Source: Sideroxydans sp. CL21 (GTDB lineage Bacteria; Pseudomonadota; Gammaproteobacteria; Burkholderiales; Gallionellaceae). From it: a DNA stretch of 64,000 bases. The notes under the pieces were generated by a model. That model worked only from the letters and a program-made list of their open reading frames with translations, was not told the DNA's origin and did not search any database. A program made the position numbers and the translations under genes. The stretch spans positions 3,298,501 to 3,362,500 of the forward strand of contig NZ_LR699166.1 of the NCBI RefSeq assembly GCF_902459525.1, read 5' to 3'. Positions within the stretch are counted from its first letter, which is position 1; every line of letters begins with the position of its first letter. Below are positions 1-16,147 of the stretch, in pieces.

Positions 1-1
1 G

Positions 2-364
2 ATTGACCCTTTGGCTCATGCACACATGAATTTGGTAGGTGGCGTGGTTCTGCTTGCTATGTGCGTAACATATTATTTACTGCCAATTTTTACTGGAAAA
101 AAAATATATTCCATAAAACTGGTTCAGCATACATTCTGGTGGGTCAGCATAGGGGTGTATAGCTTTTACATAATACAAATGGTATTTGGTATTTGGGAAG
201 GTCTTCTAATAAGTAACCCAGGAGACATGGCTTCGGTACACCGATTTTATGGGCCCGTTATGGCGCTTTCCGGCACAACAATGGCCATAGGCTTTTGTAC
301 CTATCTGGCAAATGTGATTTTGACGATAACATCCCGATCCAAGGACGACATTACGGTTACTTAA
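2..364 (+). CDS. Short heme-copper oxidase subunit-I-like membrane protein (5' end missing)
   Basis: The frame is open to the window edge, so the N-terminus is lost; about 120 residues are visible. It has three or four hydrophobic segments and begins with a HAHMNLVGG motif, which resembles the helix of oxidase subunit I that carries the paired heme-ligating histidines (HxH). It is clearly related to the 172-residue protein at 14593: both have HxHxNLxG, a YYxxP turn, an IYSxxLV stretch and HFW. Its stop codon overlaps the stop of the convergent lipoprotein gene by four bases. Family membership is well supported. Whether it binds heme or is an accessory fragment cannot be told from sequence. 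Confidence 0.75.
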   Translation: MDPLAHAHMNLVGGVVLLAMCVTYYLLPIFTGKKIYSIKLVQHTFWWVSIGVYSFYIIQMVFGIWEGLLISNPGDMASVHRFYGPVMALSGTTMAIGFCTYLANVILTITSRSKDDITVT

Positions 365-756
365 GTATTATTCTTTGCCAGCTTCAGTGGGAATATCAGT
401 ACCTTTTTATCCGTACCTTGTTGCAATTGCACCTGAAGTGCTACTGATTCACCGTCTCCAATATCTATACCCCGACGATACACTCCAATATTTCCATCTT
501 GTATCGCCTGCACCCATTGCATAGAGTCATTTCCACGCAGCGACACCGTCAAGTCCTGGACAGGACGTCCGCGTAGTCCCGTCACAATAACGACAATTTC
601 GGACATTCCGGCGAGCGGTGGATTTGGATGTGTTTCTATACGAACGTCTGCCTCTTTCCAATGCTGTGCAGGAATCAAAATCTGCTTGCTATTGTCGCCG
701 CACGCGACAAGATTCATCACGATAAAACTCAATATAACTGGCAGTAGCTTTTTCAT
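361..756 (-). CDS. Small lipoprotein, last gene of the oxidase operon
   Basis: This 131-residue protein has a signal peptide ending in the lipobox LVAC with the lipidated cysteine at residue 19. The mature part is rich in beta-prone sequence (VVIVTGLRGRPVQDLTVSLRG) and may form an Ig-like sandwich. The start codon lies three bases after the upstream stop codon, so the two genes are probably translationally coupled. No catalytic or metal-binding motif is visible. The position behind a CcoG-like gene suggests an assembly or accessory role, loosely like the FixH/CcoH place in standard cbb3 clusters, but I see no sequence proof of that. The product is best treated as unknown. Confidence 0.75.
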   Translation of the reverse strand: MKKLLPVILSFIVMNLVACGDNSKQILIPAQHWKEADVRIETHPNPPLAGMSEIVVIVTGLRGRPVQDLTVSLRGNDSMQWVQAIQDGNIGVYRRGIDIGDGESVALQVQLQQGTDKKVLIFPLKLAKNNT

Positions 757-759
757 TAG

Positions 760-1209
760 TTATTTATCCGAGCTACCACCTTGTTTATTCTTTTCATTTT
801 TTTCTTCATTCTGCTTTTCCTTGTCGGAATCAAGTCTTCCTCCAACATTCGAGCCGTACATATTCACCATGTAATACACAAATGCGGCAGCTGCAGCTAT
901 ATATACAAGCGAACCTAGGAATCCCGGGTCTTTTACCCAATCAACCCAATTGACTACCACCCCCGGTCGCAGGCCCCAGAATGGAAAACTTAGCCCAACC
1001 CCCACGAGCAATACAATCACCACAACCGCCATGAACCAATATGGGACTTTTTGTTGAGATTCTGGAATTTTCTCCACCAATTCCCAATCTTCCAGCCCAC
1101 GTTTTTCCAGGCGTTCTTGATCGGATTTGTAGCCGAAATTATCCTTGCGCAGCTCACCCCATTTGGTCATTTCATCCGAATGTTCCAATTTTTTGTCTGT
1201 GTTTTCCAT
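760..1209 (-). CDS. Two-TM protein with CcoP-like N-terminal pattern but no heme motif
   Basis: The 149-residue protein has a charged N-terminus, a helix at about residues 57-79 ending in FPFWGLRPG, a second helix near 99-117, and a highly charged Lys/Glu/Asn tail. The pattern of an acidic stretch, a P-x-W or P-x-P turn, one helix and then FPxWGxRP recurs in the protein at 8997 and recalls the membrane anchor of CcoP, where the helix ends in YPGLG. There is no CxxCH motif. An AGGGG ribosome site precedes the ATG. It lies between the CcoG-like gene and the lipoprotein. The CcoP relation is an inference from this pattern, not a confirmed homology. Confidence 0.7.
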   Translation of the reverse strand: MENTDKKLEHSDEMTKWGELRKDNFGYKSDQERLEKRGLEDWELVEKIPESQQKVPYWFMAVVVIVLLVGVGLSFPFWGLRPGVVVNWVDWVKDPGFLGSLVYIAAAAAFVYYMVNMYGSNVGGRLDSDKEKQNEEKNEKNKQGGSSDK

Positions 1210-1221
1210 GACTAGATACCC

Positions 1222-2538
1222 CTATTCAACAAAATGCTGAAGATTAAAACGTCCGGTCCAGCCATCATTGGAACGAACCACCACTGCAAATGGATGCAAG
1301 CCTCGCTCCAATTTCGGTGACACGGTAAGAAAGACTGATGTTCTGCCGACCGATTGCATACTTACTGTTGGCCTGCTCAGGGTGAATGCGCTCTCAGGCA
1401 AGCCTTCCACAGCAACGCTTAATTCAGATGGACGATAACGTTTGCTGGATATCTCGATACGGTAATCGCGCGCAGTTTGATTATGTTCCGTCTGCAAATA
1501 GCCCACCGCGATGTGATATGGCTGATATGACCATACTCCCCATGTAAACAGAATGATACCCAGAATTGCAAAGGGGGCGGTCCAGCGAAATCTCGATAGT
1601 AACGACATCGTGTTATCTCTAAGCTTTTGGATCTTGCCCGATGCTCGCTGTCCGAACTCAAACCGCAGCAAGCCAATTCCTCCCTTTTTTGCATGCAAAT
1701 TGTTGCATGCATCAATACAATCACCGCAATTTATGCAACTGTCATAAATTTCTGTTTTTCGGGGGTCCAACTCGATAAAACAGGTCGTCACGCAGTAATT
1801 ACATTTTTCGCATTCGTTAGCCCGGGTGGCGTCGTAAAGCACGTGCAACGTTTCCTTGGTTTTGAACGAATGTTGCCAAACCCTGTAGACGCAAGCAAAA
1901 CGGCACCAGAAATGCCTGAGCACCGCTATATCCAAAAGGATCATCATTACCCATACAGAATAAATCCAATACAAGGAACCAGCCAGTCTCGAATCCGTTC
2001 TGAAAATCATGAAAGACCAAACCACATCCGGCGGGTAAAAATACAGCAATGGCAACAAGGCAAAAAACATCGCCGCGCCTATGAACGAGAGCGCAAGCAA
2101 CGTCCAGTTCAGCGCTTTATTCTTGGCTGCAGCCACTTTTGGCGCTTCACCGGTCAGGCTGACTTCAGCACGTTTGCCTAGCAGTTTATGGGTCATGTGA
2201 TTCGCCCATTCAGCTATGGTGTTTTGCGGGCAGGCCCATCCGCAAAACACAGTACCTGCGATGGAATACAGCGCGACCAATGCGCTGGCTATCATTATCC
2301 ACAGGCCGGATATCAGAAAAAAATCGGCGAACCAGATTTGCCAGCCCAATACAACTAACGCCCCATTTTCAGGGTCAATCCGGAACAGTCCGGACACCGG
2401 AATGATCACCAGCAGAAATAGAATGATTATTTGAATTGAGCGGCGCTTCCATTGATAATTCCCAGCCCCATTTTTCATGCCGGGACCGATCACTTTGACT
2501 GGAATGCTGGATAGCGCTTTGTGCATACTGGAGGACAT
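1222..2538 (-). CDS. ccoG: CcoG/RdxA-type 4Fe-4S membrane protein
   Basis: This 438-residue protein matches the CcoG (FixG/RdxA) family, which acts in cbb3 oxidase assembly by reducing copper for delivery to the CuB site. Membrane segments occupy roughly residues 34-51, 68-97, 140-165 and 180-205. A CGWACPQ motif lies at 99-105, and two cluster motifs of the form CxxCxxCxxxC (CEKCNYCVTTC and CINCGDCIDAC) lie near 240-285. The C-terminal part after a final helix is a periplasmic beta domain, as in the family. The first cluster motif lacks the usual proline after its last cysteine. The ATG is preceded by AGAGG. It supports the view that the operon encodes a copper oxidase. Confidence 0.9.
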   Translation of the reverse strand: MSSSMHKALSSIPVKVIGPGMKNGAGNYQWKRRSIQIIILFLLVIIPVSGLFRIDPENGALVVLGWQIWFADFFLISGLWIMIASALVALYSIAGTVFCGWACPQNTIAEWANHMTHKLLGKRAEVSLTGEAPKVAAAKNKALNWTLLALSFIGAAMFFALLPLLYFYPPDVVWSFMIFRTDSRLAGSLYWIYSVWVMMILLDIAVLRHFWCRFACVYRVWQHSFKTKETLHVLYDATRANECEKCNYCVTTCFIELDPRKTEIYDSCINCGDCIDACNNLHAKKGGIGLLRFEFGQRASGKIQKLRDNTMSLLSRFRWTAPFAILGIILFTWGVWSYQPYHIAVGYLQTEHNQTARDYRIEISSKRYRPSELSVAVEGLPESAFTLSRPTVSMQSVGRTSVFLTVSPKLERGLHPFAVVVRSNDGWTGRFNLQHFVE

Positions 2539-2572: not shown

Positions 2573-5191
2573 TTATTGAATTGATCTCGCTTCACTGTCC
2601 AAGGGTGAATTTGCAAGCAAACGTGAACGGTACTGCTCTGCTATTTGTGGTTTACCCTCAGTTGACTCCAGATGCCACAGGGCACGTAAAGCACCAACAT
2701 GGTCCGGGTACACTTTAATGATGCGCTGCAAGGCATCACGCTCGCTCAGCCCCCGTTCCTTGGCTTGTGTTAAGGACTGCCACATGCTATCAGCTAGTGA
2801 ATTTGCTATCCAGCGATCTTGAGGGTTAGCCTGATAGGCCAACCAAATCAGATTTCCCGCCTTTGCGGCATCACCTTGAATGGATAAAACCCACGCACGA
2901 ACTGTGAGTTCAGTTGCCACATAGTCGCGCCCGAATTTACTCTTGTCACTCTCATCTATTGCCAACATTTTCATCGCGGATTCTGGCGCTGGATGACGTT
3001 GCAACAACCACGACATCAAATTAGCAAGATTCACATTGCCATCGTAGCGAGCTCTCGGCAATTTATATTCGATATATGGCTCCCACTCGTCCTGAATCGG
3101 ACCGTTCATTTCATCTATTGGCCCCCAATATCGTCCTATCCAGGTCCAGCCCCCTTCTCCACCTGTTGCCTGGCTTTGCTCCGAAACATCCATCCGCATT
3201 AAGTTCTGTAAAATCGAACTTGCTCCAGTAAATTCATCTTTGGGACCAACCAAGGCCAAATGCATGCCATCCATAAACAATTGTGCGTTTGGATACACGC
3301 GCTCAAAACTTCTCAGCACCACCTTGAGTGATTCTATTTCGAATTGGTTAAGCGCCAGCCATTGCACAAATACCCCGCCCTGGTTCAGCCTGTTTTTTGC
3401 TCTTTCAAATTGCTGCACTGATAGAAGCGACCCCATTCCTGCTATATCCGGGTGAAATAAATCTCCCACGATGACATCGTAGTGGCGTTGTGTGCTGCTC
3501 AGGAAATGTCTTGCATCATCCCTTTGTATTTGTACTTGATCCAGAATATTTCCATTGACCGGCGAGAAGAGGTACTTGGCCGAGTTAATCGAGCCCTGTG
3601 ATAGTTCCACTGCACTTCGAATCAGACTTGGAAATGGCTTGGATCCTGCCACTGAGATTCCGGTTCCCAACCCAAGGAACAATACACTTTTCGGTGCAGG
3701 GTGAAGTAGCAATGCAAGTCTGGCCTGATCTTTCTGTATTTCAACCGCACTCGGATCGGTTGAGGCATCCATACGCTGCAGGTCGCTCAGCAATATCCGT
3801 TGTCCATCCGGCTGGCGGACAACATGAGTTAACGAAATCGCATCTTCATACAGATAAAGATTCCGGCTATCTGCTTCGATTTTGGGCAGCAACTCATGCA
3901 CAGGAGGCATGGTGCGCAACGGCCAAGCTGCCACGAGCAGTACGACAAATCCCAACCAGGCTCTGCGCGAATTTGCCCAGATCAGGCCAAATGCGGGGAT
4001 TGCAACTGCGCACAAAGCAATCATCCCTACGGTGCCCAGCAGAGGAATGCCAACCAAACAGGCGATAATTGCTCCGGCACCCCCGCCCAGGCAATTTGCC
4101 CCATACAACCAAACGCCGCTTGACTCAGCATTTTCGTAACGGGTTGCCAACAGCGGTAACCAGGCTCCCAGGGCCAATGTAATCGGGAGTGTAAATATTC
4201 CCAAAATCAATGCCTGATATGTTGTTGCCCAAAAAAATGATTTGAAATCACTTTGCTCTATCCAGGCAGAAGTGGCCGGCAAGAGGAACAAACCCAGCAA
4301 CACACCTCCACCAATTGCAAACGGCATCAAAATTGACAGACCGTATTTCTTCAATCGCGGCAAAAAAAGGCTGCCCAGTGCGATCCCCAAAAGAAACACG
4401 GCCAGTATCAAGCCAAGCACATATTCTGTGCGTAACATGATCATGCCGTATATGCGCACCCATCCAATCTCGAGCATGATGCTTCCGGCCCCGATCCCGG
4501 CATAAATCATCAGCGCCGAAACGGGTGGTCGTTCGTCATTCTTCTTTTCCGGTAATGATGCCCTTGCCTGGCTGATTGAGCGAGACAAAGCCAGTGCTGT
4601 AATCCCGACTCCCAAACCTAATACCGCCATGATTCTCACTGAATCGGCCCATCCAATTGCCGGCAGACTCCACAACGGAAATATTGCTCCGGCTACTCCG
4701 CCTAACGTATTCAACCCATAGATTTTTCCGAGGGAAATTGGTGTGTGCTCAACCACTTTCAGCACCAGCGCAAAACCTACTCCCATGGCAAACGCCGGGA
4801 TCAGCAACAAACACAATGCTCCCGCACCTTGGAGCAGATACCACTGCAGCAAGGTCAGTTGACTTGAAAGTCCTTCCATCCATCCGCTTGTGTAACGGAG
4901 AAATATTGGAAGTAAAAGGGCATATATTGCTATTCCAATTTCAAGAACTGCAAATACTGATATGGGGTTTTTACTTTGCCCGGCCCATTTGATTCCCGCC
5001 AGGCTACCCAAGCCCAATCCAATCATGAAGGCTGCAACAGTCAGGACCACGCCGAAGATACTGACCCCAAACTGCATGGACAGCATGCGCGACCACAGCA
5101 CTTCATAGGCAAGACTTGTCAAGCCCGAAAAGAAATACAGGATTGCTACCAGCCACCATATCTTGTGTGTATTTCCTGAATTGATGTTCAT
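2573..5191 (-). CDS. Fused membrane transporter-like / spermidine synthase-like protein
   Basis: The N-terminal half has about a dozen hydrophobic helices and starts with FFSGLTSLAYEVLW, typical of the fused MFS/spermidine synthase family. The C-terminal half has a Rossmann methyltransferase-like fold with the SAM-type glycine motif FLGLGTGIS, an acidic strand end and VGDLFHP, followed by a helical tail that may contain TPR-like repeats. I place the start at the ATG at 5191 because the helices begin directly after it. A TTG at 5314 is an alternative and would add 41 residues without helix character. Family members are rarely characterised and polyamine synthesis should not be assumed. Why such a protein sits in an oxidase operon is unclear. 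Confidence 0.8.
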   Translation of the reverse strand: MNINSGNTHKIWWLVAILYFFSGLTSLAYEVLWSRMLSMQFGVSIFGVVLTVAAFMIGLGLGSLAGIKWAGQSKNPISVFAVLEIGIAIYALLLPIFLRYTSGWMEGLSSQLTLLQWYLLQGAGALCLLLIPAFAMGVGFALVLKVVEHTPISLGKIYGLNTLGGVAGAIFPLWSLPAIGWADSVRIMAVLGLGVGITALALSRSISQARASLPEKKNDERPPVSALMIYAGIGAGSIMLEIGWVRIYGMIMLRTEYVLGLILAVFLLGIALGSLFLPRLKKYGLSILMPFAIGGGVLLGLFLLPATSAWIEQSDFKSFFWATTYQALILGIFTLPITLALGAWLPLLATRYENAESSGVWLYGANCLGGGAGAIIACLVGIPLLGTVGMIALCAVAIPAFGLIWANSRRAWLGFVVLLVAAWPLRTMPPVHELLPKIEADSRNLYLYEDAISLTHVVRQPDGQRILLSDLQRMDASTDPSAVEIQKDQARLALLLHPAPKSVLFLGLGTGISVAGSKPFPSLIRSAVELSQGSINSAKYLFSPVNGNILDQVQIQRDDARHFLSSTQRHYDVIVGDLFHPDIAGMGSLLSVQQFERAKNRLNQGGVFVQWLALNQFEIESLKVVLRSFERVYPNAQLFMDGMHLALVGPKDEFTGASSILQNLMRMDVSEQSQATGGEGGWTWIGRYWGPIDEMNGPIQDEWEPYIEYKLPRARYDGNVNLANLMSWLLQRHPAPESAMKMLAIDESDKSKFGRDYVATELTVRAWVLSIQGDAAKAGNLIWLAYQANPQDRWIANSLADSMWQSLTQAKERGLSERDALQRIIKVYPDHVGALRALWHLESTEGKPQIAEQYRSRLLANSPLDSEARSIQ

Positions 5192-5330
5192 GGGCGGAAT
5201 GAGTGGCGTTGGTACTACTCGAAATTGCTGAGGCTTAAATGGGAGTGGAATTTGTGTAAGGCTACGAAGGGGATGCGCAACAAATTGCGCGATGCCTGAG
5301 AGCGCAACAGGCAATCTGCTTGTTTAATTC

Positions 5331-5708
5331 CTAGAAAGGATAAAACCACACTAATGCCACGACCGCGTGAACCACAGCCAGCGTCATGCTGAGCCCGGCA
5401 AATATCATGTGAGCCACGAACACCGACTTCCCGAACAGCCCCATCGCGATTCCCAACCCTCCGGTAATCAGTACGAGGGTTAACAGCGAGGCCCCCAACA
5501 AAAACATGACGCGCTGTTTGTCTTTATCGGTGATTGATTTTGCATGCTCTGTTTCTCTGTGTTGTTTATTAAATGCCTGCAAAATCTGGGCGCTTTCACC
5601 TTCATGGGGTGCGTCCTCTGCATACGCAGGAATAACGCAAGAAACCGACAACAGGAATGCCAGCAAAACAGGAAAGGTTCGAGAAATCGATAATCCGAAA
5701 AATGTCAT
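5331..5708 (-). CDS. Small membrane protein with signal peptide, unknown function
   Basis: This 125-residue protein has an N-terminal signal or anchor helix ending in AYA at about residue 30, a short periplasmic charged region, then two helices close to the C-terminus ending in WFYPF. The second helix contains two histidines (AHMIFAG and VVHAVVALVW), which could in principle face a heme, but no known motif is met. No strong ribosome site is visible before the ATG. It lies in the oxidase operon between the fusion protein and an 82-residue membrane protein. I do not recognise a family. Confidence 0.65.
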   Translation of the reverse strand: MTFFGLSISRTFPVLLAFLLSVSCVIPAYAEDAPHEGESAQILQAFNKQHRETEHAKSITDKDKQRVMFLLGASLLTLVLITGGLGIAMGLFGKSVFVAHMIFAGLSMTLAVVHAVVALVWFYPF

Positions 5709-5728: not shown

Positions 5729-5977
5729 CTATTGATGCGAAGGATTCTGGCCTTCTTCTGTAATTTCAGAAGTCGGTTTTCGCATGGCATTTCTCCATGC
5801 CAGTATAACCATCAATACAAATGGTGCAAAAACTCCCATCAACAAGAAGATGAAAATGTACCATGGAGTTGCAATAGTAACGTGTGCGAATCGGTAGCTA
5901 TCGACTGCCGCCTGCGCCAGTGGAGCCACAGCCAGACCGATGAGGATCAGGGCAGTTCTCATCCAGATGGAACTCAT
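5729..5977 (-). CDS. Small two-TM membrane protein, unknown function
   Basis: The 82-residue product has a hydrophobic N-terminus ending in AQAAVDS, which may be a signal peptide, and one strong helix at about residues 38-62 (WYIFIFLLMGVFAPFVLMV) followed by a polar tail. A GGAGG ribosome site lies seven bases before the ATG. It follows the SUMF1-like gene by 16 bases and so belongs to the same transcript. No family is recognised. Confidence 0.65.
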   Translation of the reverse strand: MSSIWMRTALILIGLAVAPLAQAAVDSYRFAHVTIATPWYIFIFLLMGVFAPFVLMVILAWRNAMRKPTSEITEEGQNPSHQ

Positions 5978-5993: not shown

Positions 5994-7055
5994 TTAATTA
6001 GTTTTCACGCTTGATGCACAGCGAAACCCATAAAAGTCTGAGGCATAGTTGGGCCAGGAATAGTCCCTATGGTACGTTGCGGTCGAAAATGGATCGCCCT
6101 TCCAGGACCCGCCGCGCAAGACTTTGTAGTACTTGTTTACCGGCACCAAATCGGCTACTTTCATCGCCTGGTCCTGCTCGTTTTGGACTTTGGCGATTTT
6201 CCCCTTGAATACCTCTGCTTCTGCATCCGTGCCTTTATAAGGCAGGAAATCGTCTTCCACCCATTCGTTCACATTTCCGGCCATGTCAAACACGCCATAT
6301 GGACTTGCACCATTTGAATATGTCGTTACATTAGTCGCTGATCCCACATTGTAGTAAGTATTCAAGCGGGCCGGATCCATTTCATTACCCCATGGCCAAC
6401 GCCTGCCGTCTGTACCTCGAGCTGCCTTTTCCCATTCAGCCTCCGTAGGCAGGCGCTTTCCAGCCCATTTCGCATAGGCTGACGCGTCGTACCAATTGAC
6501 CAGGGTAACAGGATACTGCAGGGTGCCTTCCTGAATTTTCCCGTTTTTCCAATCGGATGGCGGACGATGTCCGGTCGCCGCGATGAATCTTGCATACTGT
6601 GCATTGGTCACTAAATATTTATCGATCTGGAATGCATCCAGATTGACTTGGTGTTGGGGATGGGAAGCCGCATCGGCATTTTTCAGGTTTGTGCCCATCA
6701 GAAACTTCCCGGCAGGAATCGTTACCATACTATCCAACTCTTTCCACTGCTCTTTTGTCAGCAGCGCGTCTGCTTCAGACACCGTATAACCTGCGGATTG
6801 ATTCTTGCGGTTTTCGTTTTCTTCGTGAAGAGCAATATCTTCTCCCGCAGCACGTATCCTGGTTGATTCTTCCTTTAGGTTATAGGTTGCCAGAGCGCGC
6901 ATTTCACCCATACGTATCGAACCCAGTTTGACTACGTGCAAACTTCCTCCGACAACCACCAGCGCTATGCATGTAATTATTGTGGCTGAAAAGAAGCGCT
7001 TTCTTCGAAGTTGTTCAGCCGGACTTAATATGATCTTTTTGTCCAATTTCGACAT
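5994..7055 (-). CDS. Membrane-anchored SUMF1/FGE-fold protein lacking the catalytic cysteine pair
   Basis: The 353-residue protein has one anchor helix near residues 22-42 and a formylglycine-generating-enzyme-sulfatase fold from about 105 to 350. Hallmarks are IPAGKFLMGT, PVTLVNWYDA, LPTEAEWEKAARG, WPWG, VFDMAGNVNEWV, VLRGGSW and the closing GFRC. True FGE enzymes carry an active-site cysteine pair shortly before GFRC; here that stretch (TATYHRDYSWPNY) has no cysteine, so sulfatase activation is unlikely. Relatives of this fold, such as NirV near copper nitrite reductases, occur beside respiratory genes. The start overlaps the upstream stop (TGATG). A structural or maturation role outside the cytoplasmic membrane is an inference. 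Confidence 0.85.
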   Translation of the reverse strand: MSKLDKKIILSPAEQLRRKRFFSATIITCIALVVVGGSLHVVKLGSIRMGEMRALATYNLKEESTRIRAAGEDIALHEENENRKNQSAGYTVSEADALLTKEQWKELDSMVTIPAGKFLMGTNLKNADAASHPQHQVNLDAFQIDKYLVTNAQYARFIAATGHRPPSDWKNGKIQEGTLQYPVTLVNWYDASAYAKWAGKRLPTEAEWEKAARGTDGRRWPWGNEMDPARLNTYYNVGSATNVTTYSNGASPYGVFDMAGNVNEWVEDDFLPYKGTDAEAEVFKGKIAKVQNEQDQAMKVADLVPVNKYYKVLRGGSWKGDPFSTATYHRDYSWPNYASDFYGFRCASSVKTN

Positions 7056-7501
7056 CAGGAGTTCCTTTCCGCGATCGGCGACTTGTCCGCGGCGGCAGTT
7101 ATTTTTGTGCGTCCATACACCCTCTTGATCATGACTTCACCAACTATTCCGCCTATTCCAGCCGCTTCCATTGCCAGGATTACATAAAATCCCCACCAGC
7201 CCATCGGGTGCAATATGCTCCCATGGGGAACACCTGTGACATACAGAATTTCAGCATAACTTATGCTGCGCACTATCAATGGCGGGAAATAACACAGCCA
7301 TTTTCCGCCCATGCCGAATATCCAGGACACGACCAATCCGACAAAAAACGGTAAAACGAACAAATCTACTCCCCAAGCAAAGCTGAAGGTCGACAATCCT
7401 GAAAACAGCTCTATTTTCACCCCCAGCAATCTGTCGCCCAAATGATTCAGGGCTATGCCTGCCAGGAGTGCTACCAGACCCGTTAGATATCTATGCTTCA
7501 T
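7055..7501 (-). CDS. Four-TM membrane protein of the oxidase operon, unknown function
   Basis: The 148-residue protein has about four membrane helices (roughly residues 5-25, 40-62, 65-80 and 100-128) and a basic C-terminal tail. No cofactor motif is visible apart from scattered histidines (GVPHGSILHPMGWW). Its ATG overlaps the stop of the upstream cytochrome gene (ATGA) and its own stop overlaps the next ATG, so it is tightly coupled in the operon. I do not recognise a family. Confidence 0.7.
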   Translation of the reverse strand: MKHRYLTGLVALLAGIALNHLGDRLLGVKIELFSGLSTFSFAWGVDLFVLPFFVGLVVSWIFGMGGKWLCYFPPLIVRSISYAEILYVTGVPHGSILHPMGWWGFYVILAMEAAGIGGIVGEVMIKRVYGRTKITAAADKSPIAERNS

Positions 7502-7980
7502 TTCTGGGGCTCCGTTCCATTCAATTTCTCAAACTCTAATTTCTTAGTCTGATCGAGATACCAGTCTTTAACTTTCAAGCTTGCCAGGTATGCTGATAGA
7601 ACGCGCCGCTCTTCATCCGGCATTTTTGAATAGGAAGGCATCCGATATTCCTTTTTCAGTCTTGAAGGTAATACTGACTGTGGATCTGCAGATGAAAGAT
7701 AATCGTAAATCCATGATTCCGTGCGTATTGAACCTATTCCGTCCAACATGGGCGCCGGTACCGACTCCATCATGTTTTTCAAGGTCCAGAGCGTATGGCA
7801 GTTTCTACAGTTATTGCTGCGGTAGATGTCCATCGCTTTGCTGGCAACATCGTTGCTGGCAGTGCTGTAGAAAGGAATCTCCCGGTCATGCTGCTCTTCG
7901 ACATGCAGCAGGGACCTAAGCATCCCTGCCGCAACGACCAGCCCAATGATGAGCAGTACGGCTTTTTCTCCGCGCTTCAT
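7498..7980 (-). CDS. Membrane-anchored monoheme cytochrome c
   Basis: This 160-residue protein begins MKRGEK, has one N-terminal helix (about residues 7-24) and a heme motif CRNCH with cysteines at 58 and 61 and histidine at 62. A likely sixth ligand is a methionine in YRMPSYSKMP. It resembles the cytochrome at 14028, which begins MKKGEK and has the same architecture, suggesting an old duplication split between the two divergent operons. The start overlaps the stop of the CcoS-like gene. A role in feeding electrons to the oxidase, perhaps in place of the hemes absent from the CcoP-like subunit, is an inference. Confidence 0.85.
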   Translation of the reverse strand: MKRGEKAVLLIIGLVVAAGMLRSLLHVEEQHDREIPFYSTASNDVASKAMDIYRSNNCRNCHTLWTLKNMMESVPAPMLDGIGSIRTESWIYDYLSSADPQSVLPSRLKKEYRMPSYSKMPDEERRVLSAYLASLKVKDWYLDQTKKLEFEKLNGTEPQK

Positions 7981-8276: not shown

Positions 8277-8597
8277 TCAGAAAAGGTAGCCGCCCAGCAT
8301 TTGCACTGCGCCTACAATTACAGCAACGACTATACCCATTATTATCGCTGTGAACATGAATCGTTCACCCAACTTCATTTCTTTCGGTCGATTTTTGCTG
8401 AATATAAAAGCAATGACAATCCCTGAAAAGATAATGATGCTTATCAGCAAAAATACGAAAATCCACTCACTGAACTGTTGACTGCGCATCCCTTCGATAC
8501 TGAGGTCAAGTTTCGGAGAAATTTCTGGGCTTATTTGCGAAACAGCGGGAACGGCGGAATTTAAATCGGAGATTTGAATCGTAGACTCCCGCAACAA
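8277..8597 (-). CDS. Small two-TM protein, start uncertain
   Basis: The frame encodes up to 106 residues from a TTG at 8597; a shorter form of 70 residues would start at the ATG at 8489. Neither has a convincing ribosome site. Two helices follow (WIFVFLLISIIIFSGIVIAFIF and a C-terminal one ending in MLGGYLF), with a conserved-looking KLGERF turn between them. It lies 21 bases upstream of the CcoS-like gene. The long N-terminus before the first helix is low in structure and may not be translated. No family is recognised. Confidence 0.6.
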   Translation of the reverse strand: MLRESTIQISDLNSAVPAVSQISPEISPKLDLSIEGMRSQQFSEWIFVFLLISIIIFSGIVIAFIFSKNRPKEMKLGERFMFTAIIMGIVVAVIVGAVQMLGGYLF

Positions 8598-8818: not shown

Positions 8819-8923
8819 TTATTTCTTAATGCGATCAATAAAGAACGAGTAAATTGTCGGCGCTATAAACACTATCAATATTATCCCGCCAAGTACGCCA
8901 GGCCCAAAATCGACTTCTATCAT
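8819..8923 (-). CDS. 34-residue single-TM peptide of the oxidase operon
   Basis: A short frame starts with ATG at 8923 and ends with TAA at 8819. The peptide begins MIEVDFGPGV, has one helix (GGIILIVFIAPTIYSFF) and ends in DRIKK, giving an N-out or N-in helix with a basic end. A TAGGAG ribosome site lies eight bases before the ATG, which strongly favours translation. It sits between the CcoP-like and the two-TM genes. By size and position it may be a small oxidase subunit, like CcoQ/CcoH/CcoM-type peptides, but no sequence match is claimed. Confidence 0.7.
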   Translation of the reverse strand: MIEVDFGPGVLGGIILIVFIAPTIYSFFIDRIKK

Positions 8924-8996: not shown

Positions 8997-9614
8997 TCAA
9001 TGCGTATGCTTAGGCTGCCAGGTTGAAGGCGGCAATCTCTTGATCAGGATAATCACCATCGTAAAGAAATACAGTACGTAGAAAATATCGATGGTGTAGC
9101 CCCTGTCCCACCATGGCTGCTTTCTTTCAGGGGTTCCGTCTGCCTTGACGTTGCCCTCGAAATTCGCCAGAACCACTCTATCTCCAACGATGTTGTATTC
9201 CTGCAAATCCACACCCTTAGCCATCAATGCTTCGATTTGTGGCTTGATGATGCGCAAATCATTCATGCTCAGAGGGTGACGCTCCAACAGCTCATCATAT
9301 TTGCCGCCCAAATTCATCTGAACGATCTTTTTCATTGCAGCTTCATCATCCTGAATCGCCTGCACTTCAGGAGTGTTCATCGCTTTTACGTAGCCTTCGT
9401 AGATTGCTGCATTTGGGCGTTGCCCCCACAACGGGAAAGTAACTGCAAAAGCAGTGAGAACAGTCAACACAACGAGCAATACAACAGGCATAGGCATGCG
9501 ATGGTTGTCTTCGGTGATTCCACCCAAGTTTTCCTTTTCCCAAAGCACTTTATCGGCCTCGTTTGTCGCGGGATCGCACATCGTGACTAGCGGCTTATTA
9601 AAATTCCAAGACAT
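8997..9614 (-). CDS. CcoP-like membrane protein without heme-binding motifs
   Basis: This 205-residue protein directly follows the CcoO-like gene, the usual place of ccoP or ccoQ. It has a helix at about residues 42-62 preceded by EDNHRMPMP and ending FPLWGQRPN, which resembles the CcoP anchor helix. A 100-residue soluble region follows, with a second helix near 174-192. Canonical CcoP has two CxxCH motifs; here there is none. A GGAGG site lies eight to nine bases before the ATG. It may be a heme-less replacement of CcoP. The protein at 760 shares the helix pattern. Confidence 0.75.
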   Translation of the reverse strand: MSWNFNKPLVTMCDPATNEADKVLWEKENLGGITEDNHRMPMPVVLLVVLTVLTAFAVTFPLWGQRPNAAIYEGYVKAMNTPEVQAIQDDEAAMKKIVQMNLGGKYDELLERHPLSMNDLRIIKPQIEALMAKGVDLQEYNIVGDRVVLANFEGNVKADGTPERKQPWWDRGYTIDIFYVLYFFTMVIILIKRLPPSTWQPKHTH

Positions 9615-9630: not shown

Positions 9631-10587
9631 TTACTTCAGACTCAGCATGAAGTCAATCAGACTGCGGATTTCAGAATCGCTGGCATAAGCAGGAACATCC
9701 GGAGGCGATACACGTTTGCCTTCGCGATATTCGTCATACTCTGCACGCCATTTGTCGTAATCGATCTTGTTACCGGACGCATCCTTTTCGCCCCACAGAT
9801 AGTCGAAGCGCGGCATGATCGAATGCGGCTGGACCAGGCGTGGATTGAAGAAGTGCATCATCAACCACTCTTTGGAAGAGTTGCGAGAACCTACGTGCAT
9901 CAAGTCTGGAGCCTTACGGTCCGAACCGAACGCGGTTGGAGATTCGCCGTTGAAGTCACCCAGCATCGGGGGCGCACCGAATACCTGCCAGTCCTGTGTC
10001 TGCTCCGGAAGCAGGGTATGGCACCACCAGCACCCTTCACGCACAAAATACGTCTTGCCGGCGCCTGCATGAGAAATATCCTCATCCTTGGCTAAGTGCA
10101 TCACGTCGGCCGGCATCCACCCTTTGGTAGCAGTCAGATTATCGATATAGCTGAACTCTTTCCCCTGGTACGTCCCTTTGCTTACGGTAAAGACCGCGCC
10201 GTAGGCCTTTTGCGCATCGGTAATATGACCCTGCTCAACGCTCAGCTGCTCGATACCCTGCCCCAGAATCCGCGGATGCAATATCCCGGCAGGAAATGTC
10301 GTTCCCGGTTGATACACGAACACTGAAACAGGCTCTCCGAGCGGCTGGCCTGTTTTCGGGTCAGCCTTCAGAGCGACAACCATAGGCTTGTTCTTGCCCT
10401 GCAGAAACGGGTCTTCCAGATTGAAGCCCGTTTCATGGCCCACTGCCAGTTGCTTCGAAAGCGCTACATCAGTCGAAGATACCGACGCAATATTGATGCT
10501 CGGAAAAAACAACGTAATCGTCATCGAGCCGCCAAATGCCATGGCGAATAACCTCGCACCAACTTTATATTCTCTAAATCCAGCCAT
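9631..10587 (-). CDS. ccoO: CcoO-like monoheme cytochrome c subunit with long insert
   Basis: The 318-residue protein has an N-terminal anchor (about residues 12-35) and a C-terminal heme domain: YFVREGCWWCH with cysteines at 186 and 189 and histidine at 190, then FGSDRKAPDLMHVGSR, HFFNPRLVQP and SIMP with the probable axial methionine at 258. These are the CcoO landmarks. Standard CcoO has the heme motif much closer to the helix; here about 140 residues separate them, including a beta-rich insert of unknown function. GGGAG precedes the ATG. It lies 33 bases after the CcoN-like gene and should pass electrons to it. Confidence 0.85.
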   Translation of the reverse strand: MAGFREYKVGARLFAMAFGGSMTITLFFPSINIASVSSTDVALSKQLAVGHETGFNLEDPFLQGKNKPMVVALKADPKTGQPLGEPVSVFVYQPGTTFPAGILHPRILGQGIEQLSVEQGHITDAQKAYGAVFTVSKGTYQGKEFSYIDNLTATKGWMPADVMHLAKDEDISHAGAGKTYFVREGCWWCHTLLPEQTQDWQVFGAPPMLGDFNGESPTAFGSDRKAPDLMHVGSRNSSKEWLMMHFFNPRLVQPHSIMPRFDYLWGEKDASGNKIDYDKWRAEYDEYREGKRVSPPDVPAYASDSEIRSLIDFMLSLK

Positions 10588-10620: not shown

Positions 10621-12027
10621 TTAGCGCTCGTATCCCAGTTCATGCGGCATACGACCCTCAGGCACTTCAGTTCCCTTGCGCGCTGTCATCCACATGTTGT
10701 ACAGCCACAGAATGTTGCCAGTGAATACCAGGGTACCGCCGATCCAACGGGCGATCATGTACGGGTGCTCAGCAATCACAACATCGATATACGGAACCTC
10801 GTAAATTTTGCCAGCGCCCTGAATCAGACCGGCAATCGTCATGGAAACCCAGTAAATCGAGAAGCCGATCAGCAACAGCCAGAAGTGCATATTGGCCAGC
10901 GTCAAGGAGTACAACTTGCGCTTCATGATTGTTTGCAAGCCCAGGTAAACCGCAGCAGCCTCGAGGAAGGTAGAGAATCCGAGCAAAGCCAAGTGTGCGT
11001 GAGCAACGATCCAGCCTGTTCCGTGGATGTACCAGTTAATCGCACGAGTTTGCTGGAAACCGCCTTGCATATTCAGGGGAATAGCCATCAAGCAACCCGT
11101 GATGGTAAAACGCACCTCGATGTTCTCGACGAACATATGCCACTTGCCCTTCATCGTCAGCATGATGTTCGATACGAACGCAATCGCTGGCACCAGGATC
11201 AGCACACCTTCAACGGAAGCGAAAGACTTCAACCACTCAGGCAAAGGCGCCGACATCAGGTGGTGCGCCGCCGGAGTGGAATAGAACACCACAACAGACC
11301 AAAAGTGCAAGTGACCAATGCGGTGCGAGTACAGCGGATTTCCCGTGACCTTGGGGATGGTGTAATAAGCGATCGCAGCAGCCACCGGAGTGATCCAGAG
11401 TCCCAGTACGTTGTGCGCGAACCACCAAGTCAGATAAGCCTCGGTAAGACCGGTCAGGTGGAAAAACTCAGGAGAGTTACCCACCAGGAACACGATGATC
11501 ACCATGAAAATGGCAGAAGCAAAGAACCAGTTTGTGGTGTAAATACCTTGAGTACGGCGAGTCAAAACCGTCATCCAGACGTTGATTGCCAACGGGATGA
11601 ACACGAAGAAGGCCAAGTACAAGTCTATAGGCCACGGAAAGTCCGAATATTCACGGCCGGACGTGATACCCGCCCACAAAACGGTCAGGCCAAGTGTCAG
11701 CCCCACGTTCCACAGCAAGCAGTTCCACAGACCCAATTTTTCGGACCACAGCTTTGTGTTGCCCAACGCCGGCGTGATATACATCATGGCCATGGCAAAC
11801 GCCATGGAAATCCAGCCAAAAATAACCGCCATCACGTGAACCTGGCGCATATGACCAAAGGCGAAATAAATATTCCCGGTCACAAAATCCGGAAATGCAA
11901 GTTTCGCCGCATTAAACGATCCCAGTCCGGTACCGATTACGAACCAGATAATCGCTGAAAATCCGAAGAACACCGCCGCCGAACCGGCGGGTATATCTTC
12001 GTTCTTGGCAAACAAATATTTAAACAT
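10621..12027 (-). CDS. ccoN: cbb3-type (C-family) oxidase catalytic subunit, divergent CcoN
   Basis: The 468-residue, about 12-helix protein is the oxygen-reducing subunit. Counting from the ATG at 12027 (preceded by GAGGGGGAG), the low-spin heme histidine is H64 (MRQVHVMAVIF), the CuB ligands are H205, H255 and H256, and the HAHLALLG motif gives H343 and H345. A tyrosine at 249, seven residues before H256, matches the helix-VII tyrosine of C-family oxidases that is crosslinked to a CuB histidine. The glutamate usually found in the next segment (FEGPMM) is glutamine here (Q321). The tyrosine favours oxygen reductase over NO reductase, but activity is untested. Confidence 0.88.
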   Translation of the reverse strand: MFKYLFAKNEDIPAGSAAVFFGFSAIIWFVIGTGLGSFNAAKLAFPDFVTGNIYFAFGHMRQVHVMAVIFGWISMAFAMAMMYITPALGNTKLWSEKLGLWNCLLWNVGLTLGLTVLWAGITSGREYSDFPWPIDLYLAFFVFIPLAINVWMTVLTRRTQGIYTTNWFFASAIFMVIIVFLVGNSPEFFHLTGLTEAYLTWWFAHNVLGLWITPVAAAIAYYTIPKVTGNPLYSHRIGHLHFWSVVVFYSTPAAHHLMSAPLPEWLKSFASVEGVLILVPAIAFVSNIMLTMKGKWHMFVENIEVRFTITGCLMAIPLNMQGGFQQTRAINWYIHGTGWIVAHAHLALLGFSTFLEAAAVYLGLQTIMKRKLYSLTLANMHFWLLLIGFSIYWVSMTIAGLIQGAGKIYEVPYIDVVIAEHPYMIARWIGGTLVFTGNILWLYNMWMTARKGTEVPEGRMPHELGYER

Positions 12028-12217: not shown

Positions 12218-12493
12218 TCAGGCAGCATCGCCTTCCAATTTATAGTGGCGATTCAAGCCAACATACAGAATTCCGCAAAACGCAATTCCGAAAACGATCA
12301 TTGCCTCATCAATAAACCCGGTGAAGGTTGACGGGTCATACGCCATCCACGCAGATCCACCCCAGTTACTAAACCCCCCGCGCCCCATCAGGCACATTAA
12401 AGTCGCGCCAAAAACGCTGCCATTACCCATTCCCGTCAGCATCCCGCTCACAAGAATCAGCCAAATGGATAGAGATTTTTTCTTTGTACTCAT
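12218..12493 (-). CDS. 91-residue two-TM protein, first gene of the leftward oxidase operon
   Basis: The start is taken at the ATG at 12493, which has a G-rich ribosome site (AAGGGGGG) just before it; a longer upstream extension is open but reads through promoter-like AT-rich sequence. The protein has a helix at about residues 8-33 with a MCLMGRGG turn, a Trp/Gly-rich loop (FSNWGGSAWMAYDP) and a second helix ending in a polar tail. It is the first gene after the intergenic control region. Function is unknown. Confidence 0.7.
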   Translation of the reverse strand: MSTKKKSLSIWLILVSGMLTGMGNGSVFGATLMCLMGRGGFSNWGGSAWMAYDPSTFTGFIDEAMIVFGIAFCGILYVGLNRHYKLEGDAA

Positions 12494-12655
12494 GACCCCC
12501 CTTAAATTAATAAAAATCAAAACTTGCCAAAAAAACCGGTTACCCCATAACTCGAGACACAATCGAATTTCATTTGAATTACATTTAAATCTAAAAATCA
12601 ATCAGTTGAAGCATTGCGGCCAACAACGAATTTTTAATACAAACTTTGTTTTCCA

Positions 12656-12880: not shown

Positions 12881-12985
12881 ATGCTTGAGCCAGATGTAAC
12901 GACCAGCGAAGTTCTTATTATGTATGCAGGTATTTTCGTATTTTTGTTCGGCTTGGCTTTTATTCTGATGAAAAAGCATTCTTAA
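12881..12985 (+). CDS. 34-residue single-TM peptide, first gene of the rightward operon
   Basis: The ATG at 12881 has an AAGGAG ribosome site six bases upstream. The peptide begins MLEPDVTTSE, has one helix (VLIMYAGIFVFLFGLAFIL) and ends in MKKHS. It precedes the diheme cytochrome gene by 93 bases. It is the third such micropeptide in the oxidase locus, after those at 8819 and 12052. Function is unknown; a small oxidase subunit or assembly peptide is a reasonable guess. Confidence 0.7.
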   Translation: MLEPDVTTSEVLIMYAGIFVFLFGLAFILMKKHS

Positions 12986-13078: not shown

Positions 13079-13867
13079 ATGCGTAAATTATCAAATTTGG
13101 CAATGGCGTGTTTGGGGACGGCCGCCATGCTGGTTTTTTCAGGTGCAAGTTTGGCTGACGGCAGCGCCGTAAGTGTGAATTTAACCAACGGCAAAAGCAT
13201 TTTCGAAAATGGCAAGCCGGACGGGAGCGTACCAGCTTGCGCCACATGTCATGGCGACAAGGCGATGGGGCAAGATGCAATGAAAGCACCCAGGCTTGCA
13301 AATATTGGATATGTGTACATCGTCAAGCAACTAACGAATTTCGCTGAAGACAAGCGTACCGACAATATCATGCAGCAGATGAATGGCATTGCTAAGGCTT
13401 TGAGCGAACAGGATCGTCGCGACCTGGCTGCATATGAGAACAGCTTCCCAAGGAATGCCGAACTCTCCGACCTGAATCAGCTTAAAACTGATGGAACAAA
13501 AATTGGCGAGGCTTACAAAGGCTCGATCCTTGTTCGCTATGGACGGAATGGTCCGGGCGTGGCAGAAAAAGATAGAGTATCTGCTTGCACATCCTGCCAT
13601 GGCTTTAACGGCCGCGGTGCCGATCCGGTGTATCCCAAGATCGGTCAGCAGAAATATACCTACCTGGTTGCTCAGTTGACTAACTGGCGTGACGCCACCC
13701 GTACCAATGACCCTATGGGGCAAATGCGAAAAGTCGCCCACAACCTGTCCGATGATGACATCATTGACGTAGCCACCTTCTTGTCACAGGCTCCGGATAG
13801 CACGAGTGGAGACGGCATGGAAATCGGCAATCAGACGGTTCTGGAAAAGCTGAAGGTAGTACGTTAA
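13079..13867 (+). CDS. Diheme cytochrome c (c4-like), periplasmic
   Basis: The 262-residue protein has a signal peptide of about 26 residues (ending ASLADG) and two heme motifs, CATCH at 54-58 and CTSCHGFNGRG at 170-174, in two similar domains as in cytochrome c4. The start at 13079 is chosen because GAGGGGGAG lies just upstream and the signal peptide begins there. It is likely a periplasmic electron carrier to the oxidase. A terminator follows at 13926, so the peptide and this cytochrome may form their own transcript. Confidence 0.88.
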   Translation: MRKLSNLAMACLGTAAMLVFSGASLADGSAVSVNLTNGKSIFENGKPDGSVPACATCHGDKAMGQDAMKAPRLANIGYVYIVKQLTNFAEDKRTDNIMQQMNGIAKALSEQDRRDLAAYENSFPRNAELSDLNQLKTDGTKIGEAYKGSILVRYGRNGPGVAEKDRVSACTSCHGFNGRGADPVYPKIGQQKYTYLVAQLTNWRDATRTNDPMGQMRKVAHNLSDDDIIDVATFLSQAPDSTSGDGMEIGNQTVLEKLKVVR

Positions 13868-13891
13868 ACGCCAGACATCGGGTATTTTCTA

Positions 13892-13915: not shown

Positions 13916-13925
13916 AACTAAAAGG

Positions 13926-13962
13926 GATACTGATCTATCATAGCGATCAGTATCTTTTTTGT
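13926..13962 (+). terminator. Rho-independent terminator after the diheme cytochrome gene
   Basis: A 10-bp stem (GATACTGATC / GATCAGTATC) with a 9-base loop is followed by six T residues and a further T-rich stretch. It lies 59 bases after the stop codon of the cytochrome gene and 66 bases before the next start. Confidence 0.85.
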
Positions 13963-14027
13963 TTTTTAGTCTCTGCCTGACAGGCAAGCACTGCGCGAAT
14001 TCATAATAGTAGCAAGATTGGAGAAAC

Positions 14028-14609
14028 ATGAAAAAAGGAGAAAAGATCCTTTTTGGGATAGTTGCGCTACTCGTAGTTATTACGGTGATCAATTTTACGG
14101 TCCTGGAATCAATTAGACGAAACTCGGACAAGCCCTTGTTTCCTATTCTGACTCACTTCGTTTTTTCAGACGAAGGTTTGCGCGGCTACCAGATATATCA
14201 GCAAAGAGACTGCTATACCTGCCATAGGGCGGTTGGCAGCGGAACGAGTATGGGCATCAGTCTCGATGGCCTGGGTTCAAAGCATGACGTTGATTACTTC
14301 TATGCTTTCCTTAAAAAGCCGGAACAGACTTACGGTTCAAAGACCATGGATCATGGGGCCCCTCCCAAAGATGCCGCTTATGTGTCCGAGCTTCCGGATG
14401 CGGAATTGCACACCGTGGCGGTTTTTCTATCCGAGCTAAAGTCTGACCAGGGTTCATCTTCGTCTTTTATTCCACCAAAGGGCGATTCAAGTTTTATTGA
14501 TGCCATGCTGGATATGTGGGCTCCGGACGGCTGGAGATCACAATACAAAGATATTCGCGATTGGATGAAAACAAAACCTCAAGAGGAGCAACATGAAACA
14601 AAGCATTGA
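14028..14609 (+). CDS. Membrane-anchored monoheme cytochrome c
   Basis: The 193-residue protein begins MKKGEK, has one helix (about residues 8-26) and a heme motif CYTCH with cysteines at 62 and 65. It is a paralogue-like partner of the cytochrome at 7498 (MKRGEK start, same layout), but has a longer C-terminal extension after the heme domain. A GGAGA site precedes the ATG. Its last 17 bases overlap the start of the next gene. Together with the subunit-I-like protein that follows, it may form a NorC/CcoO-like pair, which is inference. Confidence 0.85.
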   Translation: MKKGEKILFGIVALLVVITVINFTVLESIRRNSDKPLFPILTHFVFSDEGLRGYQIYQQRDCYTCHRAVGSGTSMGISLDGLGSKHDVDYFYAFLKKPEQTYGSKTMDHGAPPKDAAYVSELPDAELHTVAVFLSELKSDQGSSSSFIPPKGDSSFIDAMLDMWAPDGWRSQYKDIRDWMKTKPQEEQHETKH

Positions 14610-15111
14610 GCACAGCGCCGCACAACTCGAAGACTTTAACAAATACCTTTTATGGTTCGTCTACGCGTGCATTATTTACAGCATTATCGGCTTCACGTGG
14701 GGAGCAGTTATGGGTGGCGTCCCGGCCTTCCGCTATTTTGTGGACTATAGCGCGCACGGGCGTCTGATCACGCTGGCACATGGTCACATCAACCTGCTGG
14801 GGTGGGTTGAAATGGCGATATTCGCCGCTTTATACTATGTCGTCCCTACGGTTTCCCGCCGCCAGATATACAGCGTGCGTCTCGTGAGAATACACTTCTG
14901 GATGCACAATTTCGGATTGATCGGAATGGTGGTTTTTTTCCTTTCAGCCGGACTGATTGGCGGCTTGGGCTCGGGCGAAAATACCGAAAAAGTAGTGAGT
15001 CATTTGCTGGCCTTTGTCGGGATGTTTGGCATGCTGGTTCTGTCTGCAAACATCATCTGGGGCTATAACTTGTATAAAACAACCAAAGTCGGGTGGCAAA
15101 AGCCATTATGA
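14593..15111 (+). CDS. Short heme-copper oxidase subunit-I-like membrane protein
   Basis: The 172-residue protein has four or five helices and contains AHGHINLLGW followed by YYVVP, the pattern of the HxH helix in oxidase subunit I, then a QIYSVRLVRIHFW stretch. Full subunit I proteins have 12 helices, so this is a mini-protein of that superfamily, often annotated simply as cbb3 subunit I. It shares its landmarks with the truncated gene at the left window edge. It overlaps both neighbours (17 bases before, 4 after), so it is translated together with the cytochrome and the thioredoxin-like lipoprotein. Confidence 0.78.
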   Translation: MKQSIEHSAAQLEDFNKYLLWFVYACIIYSIIGFTWGAVMGGVPAFRYFVDYSAHGRLITLAHGHINLLGWVEMAIFAALYYVVPTVSRRQIYSVRLVRIHFWMHNFGLIGMVVFFLSAGLIGGLGSGENTEKVVSHLLAFVGMFGMLVLSANIIWGYNLYKTTKVGWQKPL

Positions 15112-15605
15112 AGAAACGCAAGTTCCTGTCGGCATGCTTGGCATTGGCTCTTTTGAGCACGGTTAGCGGCTGCGAGCAGAATTTATCCGCCGGTTTTGCG
15201 GTAGGAATGCACGCGCCGAGTTTGCCCACCAAAACCCTGGCAGATGCCGACGGAAACTTCAGCAAGGTCACGACTTATCGCCAGCCGGATCCCCGCATGT
15301 ATCAATATTCAGTTGATAAGGCATTGCTGACGGGCAAGCCGATCGTGTTGGAATTTGCCACGCCGGGACACTGTACCAATTGCGACCAGCAGCTTCAGAT
15401 GCTGAAGGGCGTGATGGATCAGTATCAGGACAAAATCATATTTATCCACATAGACCAATATGCCAATCCCCAGGCCTATAAGGCTTATAGAGTCATGGGC
15501 GACCCCTGGACCTTTATCATCGACAAGCATGGCGTCGTTCAGTTTGAACAAGCCGGTAGGATGCTGCTCGGTGAAATGGACAGTGCATTGAAAACAATCA
15601 ATTGA
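15108..15605 (+). CDS. Thioredoxin-fold lipoprotein
   Basis: The start at 15108 overlaps the upstream stop (ATGA). The 165-residue protein has a signal peptide with the lipobox VSGC and a thioredoxin-like fold with a CxxC motif in GHCTNCDQQ and a later cis-proline region (MGDPWTFIIDKHG). It should sit in the periplasm on the inner or outer membrane. In an oxidase operon a role in copper delivery or in keeping heme-binding cysteines reduced, similar to SCO/SenC or CcmG, is likely but not shown. Confidence 0.82.
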   Translation: MKKRKFLSACLALALLSTVSGCEQNLSAGFAVGMHAPSLPTKTLADADGNFSKVTTYRQPDPRMYQYSVDKALLTGKPIVLEFATPGHCTNCDQQLQMLKGVMDQYQDKIIFIHIDQYANPQAYKAYRVMGDPWTFIIDKHGVVQFEQAGRMLLGEMDSALKTIN

Positions 15606-15682
15606 AAATTGTCATTTGAGGCAATCAACCGATCCTGGTTGCTGCCGCAAATACAATTTGAACAGAATACGGTAGACAGCTT

Positions 15683-16147
15683 ATGAAGGAGACGATGAAT
15701 TTCGATTTGGTGCCTGATCGCAAAGGAATGGTATGGGATTTGTTGCTGTACATTCCAACCGTGGTGGCGCTGGCTTCGATCGCTGCTGGTTTCTGGTACG
15801 ACGATGACCACAACATGGGTTACCTGTTCTTCTTCCTGACTTGCTTCTTTTTCATCGCCGGGTTTAACCGGGTATTCAAAACCAGGTTGATGCTTTTACC
15901 CTCTGCGCCGATATCACTCAAGGTAACAGACGAGAATCTGGGCTTGGTCCAGCGTAACGGTACCCAGGTTAATCTGGTGAAGAACCTGCGCTACTTCCCC
16001 GACTATTCGGGAAAGACATTCGGCATTTCGGGTTTGGATGGCGCAGGCAAGCAACAGCAGTTCGTGTTTCACAAGGGCCAGTTTCCTACTCCTGAAAAGT
16101 TTGATTCCATTCAAACTTACTTTAAAGCCCACTTGAACAAAAAATAA
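15683..16147 (+). CDS. Two-TM membrane protein with cytosolic C-terminal domain, unknown
   Basis: The 154-residue protein has two helices (about residues 18-40 and 47-65) and a C-terminal beta-rich domain (VTDENLGLVQRNG, FGISGLDGAGKQQQF) that may be PH-like. The ATG at 15683 has no clear ribosome site; an internal ATG at 15695 has AAGGAG only three bases before it. It is the last gene of the rightward operon, 77 bases after the thioredoxin-like gene. No family is recognised. Confidence 0.65.
   Translation: MKETMNFDLVPDRKGMVWDLLLYIPTVVALASIAAGFWYDDDHNMGYLFFFLTCFFFIAGFNRVFKTRLMLLPSAPISLKVTDENLGLVQRNGTQVNLVKNLRYFPDYSGKTFGISGLDGAGKQQQFVFHKGQFPTPEKFDSIQTYFKAHLNKK

Follow-up and report, generated by a model that had tools for sequence, protein, structure and literature searches.

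Terminal oxidases of the cbb3 type have been treated generally for iron-oxidizing bacteria (PMC4643136, PMC3770913, PMC3179512) and fall there into proximal and distal forms or subtrees (PMC7029218, PMC10734462). The cbb3 oxidase of Ferrovum JA12 is described as having subunits I and II only, with co-located c cytochromes that could stand in for subunit III (PMC4725956). Strain ES-1 has two cbb3 clusters that differ in subunit composition, and inside a cbb3 cluster lies the cyc1 homologue Slit_2657, which rises after FeCl2 (PMC8788666). In Candidatus Tenderia electrophaga the non-canonical terminal oxidase complex IV-2 ranks with the most strongly expressed, and the genome has a Cyc1 region syntenic with Mariprofundus (PMC5371394). 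The cbb3 oxidase of Nitrotoga has been described in print as a predicted high-affinity proton pump. Here we analyse a related but divergent oxidase locus of Sideroxydans sp. CL21. It lies in a stretch of 64,000 nucleotides (the window, G000:C1:3298501-3362500) of a genome that is one contig of 3.77 Mb, and reading frames and family scans delimit it as a cassette of about 20 genes spanning positions -157 to 16147 of the window around the catalytic subunit CcoN.

Our results suggest, with a probability of about 0.78, that this cassette encodes a C-family (cbb3-like) terminal oxidase that reduces O2 in Fe(II)- and nitrite-oxidizing bacteria and belongs to a clade of its own; going by print, the same oxidase probably serves electrode-oxidizing bacteria too. 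In a careful CcoN tree of 51 rows (61 before 10 near-copies were removed) the clade has support of 99/95 and stands outside ordinary CcoN/FixN; the latter rows, one of them from S. meliloti psymA, make up a separate clade (100/100). Rooting on NorB made it sister to all other C-type rows (94/82), a position where long branches meet and the root is unsure. We surveyed 60 genomes of the family (Gallionellaceae) with matches at E <= 0.001 and hand-counted presence/absence tables. The window CcoN is 31-34% identical to the ordinary CcoN of these genomes, and no full-length match fell between 86% and 34% identity; a wider survey gave a gap between 69% and 35% that holds for matches at E <= 1e-70. 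The CcoN, CcoO and CcoG of the locus all score under the NCBIfam equivalog cut-offs for ccoN, ccoO and ccoG.

An aerobic nitrite oxidizer needs some enzyme to reduce O2. Our Nitrotoga set consisted of ten genomes of genus g8, eight named Nitrotoga and two assigned by the same genus code, and in all ten the only PF00115 matches were this CcoN and two short CcoN-like proteins of the cassette (mini1 and mini2, below); eight of the ten gave no bd oxidase match. As this CcoN is the sole full-length heme-copper subunit I found in Nitrotoga, we infer that it would be the O2-reducing terminal oxidase. In the family survey this CcoN occurs with no canonical match in 16 of the 60 genomes; 32 have the canonical one only, 8 both and 4 neither, so the two oxidase types look largely interchangeable. 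One of the eight is the window genome, with a split canonical copy, and the four with neither are 72-89% complete. Many iron- and nitrite-oxidizing bacteria appear to use this unusual oxidase for O2 respiration.

The catalytic subunit was aligned to the canonical oxidase of Pseudomonas stutzeri (3mk7). H64, H205, H255, H256, H343 and H345, the ligands of heme b, heme b3 and CuB, are kept in 94 of 94 clade sequences. All 94 also have Y249, aligned with P. stutzeri Tyr251, where five of five NorB sequences have Thr or Ser, and all have G209 at the position of the NorB FeB glutamate, which is Glu in the same five. At four positions the clade departs from the canonical enzyme: the residues aligned with Tyr237, Ser240, Tyr317 and Glu323, in the channel region, are His, Gly, Ala and Gln throughout the 94 sequences (20 canonical rows: Tyr in 20, Ser in 20, Tyr in 20, and Glu in 16 with Asp in 4). 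The Gln at the Glu323 position is common to fused (3) and Paraburkholderia-type (4) rows. The proton route of this clade is probably altered, and its proton pumping may be weaker or different. Established redox potentials leave little energy for proton pumping on Fe(II), so that the presence of the same enzyme in Ferrovum, an acidophilic Fe(II) oxidizer (87%, L102), fits reduced pumping without proving it. When five distant genomes were compared with the window genome, CcoN was 77-80% identical and SecA 56-59% (no SecA match was obtained in G304, which is 84% complete); CcoN being more conserved than SecA points to strong constraint on CcoN or to movement between lineages.

At positions 4731-11344 of L187 (Paraburkholderia aromaticivorans pBN2) a further C-family oxidase has as neighbours a cytochrome c, a P-type ATPase and a molybdopterin oxidoreductase, and no CcoP is annotated in this stretch; in the tree it groups with three genomes of the same order in a clade apart. 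NorB-like genes in L190 (1393-2751) and L192 (1423-2772), annotated as cbb3-type cytochrome c oxidase subunit I, adjoin cytochrome c and NorQ/VWA genes.

Gene families were assigned from open reading frames together with Pfam and NCBIfam scans. A contig search with patterns drawn from the clade itself confirmed 155 relatives of this CcoN, and 80 of the 155 were kept and analysed as loci (L numbers). Their CcoN is 83-99% identical to that of the window and their titles name Sideroxydans, Gallionella, Nitrotoga, Ferrovum, Gammaproteobacteria and others; the closest named relatives among them are two Sideroxydans metagenome-assembled genomes (98-99%). Counts out of 80 below come from profiles trained on these same loci and are raw, loci cut by contig ends included. 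The genes are given in the order of the minus-strand block (12496 to 361), the plus-strand block (12881-16147) and mini2; TM stands for transmembrane.

12218..12496, minus: g12496, small membrane protein; 80/80 loci; GMGNGSVF invariant in 92 rows.
10621..12027, minus: divergent CcoN catalytic subunit, 468 amino acids; PF00115 3.2e-76; TIGR00780 231.1 bits, cut-off 583.15.
9631..10587, minus: CcoO-like monoheme subunit (FixO); PF02433 1e-16; TIGR00781 64.8 bits, cut-off 200.65; 79/80 loci.
8997..9614, minus: g9614, CcoP-N-like (FixP_N) protein without heme that also has a middle domain and a second TM; 78/80 loci.
8819..8923, minus: g8923, single-TM mini-protein of 34 amino acids; 75/80 loci.
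8277..8597, minus: g8597, two-TM small protein, start codon uncertain; 73/80 loci.
7977..8255, minus: CcoS/FixS-like protein; PF03597 at E 0.0014, below cut-off; 73/80 loci.
7498..7980, minus: monoheme cytochrome c, TM-anchored; PF00034 1.8e-6; one CxxCH in 81/81 members; 73/80 loci.
7055..7501, minus: g7501, membrane protein; 67/80 loci.
5994..7055, minus: SUMF1-fold protein, TM-anchored, without the cysteine pair of formylglycine-generating enzyme (FGE); PF03781 5.1e-56; 68/80 loci.
5729..5977, minus: g5977, small membrane protein; 66/80 loci.
5331..5708, minus: g5708, small membrane protein; 63/80 loci.
2573..5314, minus: membrane protein with spermidine-synthase-like domain; PF01564 4.6e-7; 61/80 loci.
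1222..2538, minus: CcoG-like membrane ferredoxin; TIGR02745 117.2 bits, cut-off 316.7; 59/80 loci.
760..1209, minus: g1209, two-TM protein, first TM region related to g9614; 56/80 loci.
361..756, minus: g756, lipoprotein-like, no family match; 28/80 loci, its position being at or beyond the 10-kb flank.
12881..12985, plus: single-TM reading frame of 34 amino acids before the c4 cytochrome; candidate in 38/60 loci by a crude screen, the L059 candidate not being alike.
13079..13867, plus: diheme cytochrome c4-like protein in a Cyc1-like position; 61/80 loci.
14028..14609, plus: monoheme cytochrome c, TM-anchored; PF00034 3.6e-7; 60/80 loci.
14593..15111, plus: mini1, COX1-like four-TM protein matching CcoN TM IX-XII, HxH motif kept; 49/80 loci.
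15093..15605, plus: thioredoxin-fold lipoprotein-like protein, C94 and C97 invariant; 52/80 loci.
15683..16147, plus: g16147, two-TM protein; 53/80 loci.
-157..364 (1..364 in the window; L002 15843-16364), plus: mini2, COX1-like mini-protein of 173 amino acids; PF00115 2.4e-10; 7/80 loci, in two of which (L059, L069) the match lies in the mini1 position, the profile having drifted towards mini1.

A sequence-only reading of the window had named CcoN-, CcoO-, CcoG- and CcoS-like proteins, c cytochromes, the minis, the SUMF1-fold protein and small membrane proteins, and frames and scans confirmed every class. The two divergent operons that it described are the minus- and plus-strand blocks, to which mini2, starting 157 bases before the window, adds a third, convergent unit. 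Its three or four c cytochromes are four genes if CcoO is counted, with five CxxCH motifs in total. Small membrane proteins are present in number, and to the roughly eight that it named two further single-TM reading frames of 34 amino acids have to be added. These two frames (8819-8923 and 12881-12985) are kept in many relatives and ordinary gene callers may miss both.

It had also noted the lack of a canonical CcoP or CcoI. Indeed no diheme CcoP or CcoI was found among the reading frames of the locus, but both occur elsewhere in the genome, where canonical ccoO, ccoP, ccoG, ccoH and ccoI lie near 349-357 kb (named by eye). A canonical ccoP elsewhere was a finding that this reading had named as counting against itself; the gene is present, but in a separate canonical cco cluster. 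The canonical ccoN of that cluster is split into two overlapping frames (L177 7321-8235 and 8232-8798; G000:C1 near 349.3-350.8 kb), a real lesion or an assembly error; it precedes open ccoO, ccoP, ccoG, ccoH and ccoI, and relatives have it intact. The window genome also encodes a bd oxidase. Directly adjoining the cassette, at 16218-19210, are frames resembling molybdenum-cofactor genes (MoaB/MoeA/MobA/MobB-like, by eye), and upstream of the cassette in L002 (3464-4006) lies a protein of long Ala-Lys-rich repeats.

The gene set is a conserved cassette and not a chance neighbourhood, since CcoN, CcoO and g9614 are consecutive in 78 of the 80 loci (the remaining two contigs end there) and the full row from CcoN to the spermidine-synthase-like gene is present in 60, with 15 more agreeing up to the contig end; g5977 and g5708 are swapped in L092 and L113. 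The five-gene c4 block is complete upstream and on CcoN's strand in 45 loci, including L069 with its mini labelled mini2 and two with the cytochrome in two frames. It is complete on the opposite strand, like in the window, in two, and partial on that strand in others (c4 in ten loci, nine of these with the cytochrome too). L055, L059 and L073 are rearranged cassettes with c4, cytochrome c and a mini downstream of CcoN, plus a second c4 match. In two genomes the five-gene module is unlinked from CcoN, lying on a different contig or some 280 kb off, yet still intact.

Co-occurrence of the neighbours across genomes, which the sequence-only reading had proposed as a check, was borne out for the two partners tested, g9614 and the SUMF1-fold protein. 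This CcoN is found in 24 of the 60 family genomes; g9614 occurs in the same 24 and no other, and a SUMF1 match of >= 60% identity occurs in 23 of them, the 24th having its CcoN on a 4.7-kb contig. Mini matches were obtained in 24/24 genomes with this CcoN and 0/36 others (one short match, in G004, lies within a 570-amino-acid frame). From 31 loci in which no mini1 had been named we tried seven genomes and all seven had one. A second mini was present in 8/8 genomes, namely those seven plus that of L055, where mini1 was already known, as well as in 10/10 Nitrotoga. Further afield, in ten same-phylum loci of families f39, f59 and f72, which we take to be Zetaproteobacteria, the downstream block lies beside CcoN in six and is contig-cut in three. 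The c4 block is upstream in five of the ten, mostly without a recognised c4, contig-cut in two and was not found in L170-L172.

How would electrons enter an oxidase without CcoP? The domain PF14715 (FixP_N) matched in 21 of 24 g9614 members, and the first TM region of g1209 aligned with g9614 at an hhalign E of 3.5e-6 over 45 columns. The heme-less FixP_N-like proteins (g9614, perhaps g1209) may retain the membrane part of CcoP, while separate monoheme cytochromes would replace its diheme half. The periplasmic donors would be the diheme c4 encoded alongside and the two monoheme cytochromes anchored in the membrane, and electrons would pass from these carriers to the CcoO heme, the low-spin heme b and finally heme b3/CuB, the putative site of O2 reduction. 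The CcoG-, CcoS- and thioredoxin-like proteins may aid assembly, and copper is probably supplied in trans. Both the electron order and the division into subunits and assembly proteins are predictions from sequence. The active site of FGE has paired C-terminal cysteines; the aligned segment of the SUMF1-fold protein, RGGS[WF]K[SG]DPF...YHR or FHR, is without Cys in 21 of 21 sequences, so that the pair is missing.

Several observations weigh against this reading. Two of the six non-Nitrotoga genomes that have this CcoN and no canonical match carry another heme-copper subunit I. FixP_N similarity was undetected in the window's own g9614, and its predicted model gave no fold match. None of the five-gene c4 block was found upstream of CcoN in 20 of the 80 loci, 10 of which have at least 8 kb there, and L055, L059 and L073 showed no SUMF1-to-CcoG part in 10 kb of sequence. 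The downstream block, this part included, was not found beside CcoN in the distant locus L169, and SUMF1 matches, at 43% and 52%, were also obtained in two genomes of the family that lack this CcoN. The small proteins are putative subunits. Of the two cbb3 types in ES-1, one rose on thiosulfate and not on Fe(II) (PMC8788666); it may or may not be the present one.

The alternative that survives best, to which we would give somewhat less than even odds, is a working enzyme whose small core consists of CcoN and CcoO together with the FixP_N-like protein and a single monoheme cytochrome, while assembly factors make up most of the additional genes. The CcoG-, CcoS- and thioredoxin-like proteins belong to assembly-type families, assembly genes are also present in canonical cbb3 clusters, and only g12496, CcoN, CcoO, g9614 and g8923 stay contiguous in the three rearranged loci. 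Yet g12496 and g8923, found in 80 and 75 of the 80 loci, lie within the structural gene block and resemble small subunits rather than enzymes, and mini1 retains its heme-ligand HxH motif in 19 of 19 sequences. A far larger assembly is conceivable but unlikely: a complex of at least 15 subunits for high-potential donors (Fe2+, nitrite, cathodes), its proton channel dismantled and pumping few or no protons, with the two CcoN-derived four-helix proteins as extra b-heme or heme-loading modules.

A C-family enzyme that reduces or detoxifies nitric oxide (NO), as the sequence-only reading had allowed for, is highly improbable. The C family is related to the NO reductase cNOR and CcoN weakly matches NorB (4xyd, 5.2e-6), but the oxidase Tyr at 249 and the Gly in place of the NOR Glu speak against it in every one of the 94 sequences, as do the distance of CcoN from NorB in the trees and the lack, in Nitrotoga, of another full-length heme-copper subunit I among our matches. 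Least probable of all is an ordinary cbb3 oxidase next to unrelated genes, for although the Pfam families are the same and the genome has a canonical cco cluster elsewhere, CcoP and CcoI included, the CcoN has its own clade apart from FixN/CcoN, the equivalog cut-offs are not reached and the partners are conserved across distant genomes. What the tree and the neighbours support is the other proposal of that reading, an oxidase that diverges within the C family, takes in electrons by another route and has far more conserved partners; its CcoN does fall outside the ordinary CcoN clade.

Most of the Nitrotoga sampled appear to depend on this enzyme as their terminal oxidase, and many iron-oxidizer relatives carry it; in the print available to us it is handled simply as cbb3. 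Should it differ in proton route and electron entry, the assumptions made on energy yield and O2 affinity in these organisms would have to be checked again. The cassette supplies a marker as well as a defined set of proteins to search for, and four-helix CcoN fragments with heme-ligand motifs bear on the origin of 12-helix oxidases from smaller modules.

The novelty is less than the sequence-only reading held, as CcoP-less or Cyc1-linked cbb3 clusters of iron oxidizers appear in the print seen by us. The existence of the enzyme is thus already in print, but its anatomy, as far as we found, is not: in the literature searched, which was mostly open-access main text, we found no description of the complete cassette or of its minis, SUMF1 protein, 34-amino-acid frames or residue changes. 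The CcoP-less cbb3 of Ferrovum JA12 and the cbb3 subtrees of iron oxidizers are probably the same enzyme as that of the window. Ferrovum myxofaciens P3G has this CcoN and the downstream block (L102, 87%), and G050, probably ES-1, has this CcoN together with a c4 gene. The Tenderia complex IV-2 may be this cassette as well, going by its published description.

With cNOR (NorCB) the oxidase has in common the C family and a 12-TM subunit I, but the window clade is without the NorB FeB Glu, has the oxidase Tyr and sits on a separate branch. With canonical cbb3 (CcoNOQP or FixNOQP; 3mk7) it shares a C-family subunit I with all ligands and the cross-link Tyr, the monoheme CcoO and helpers of the CcoG and CcoS type. 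It differs from the canonical enzyme in a CcoN only about 31-34% identical, in four channel-region positions changed in 94 of 94 sequences, and in a cluster that dispenses with diheme CcoP and has at least a dozen extra conserved genes.

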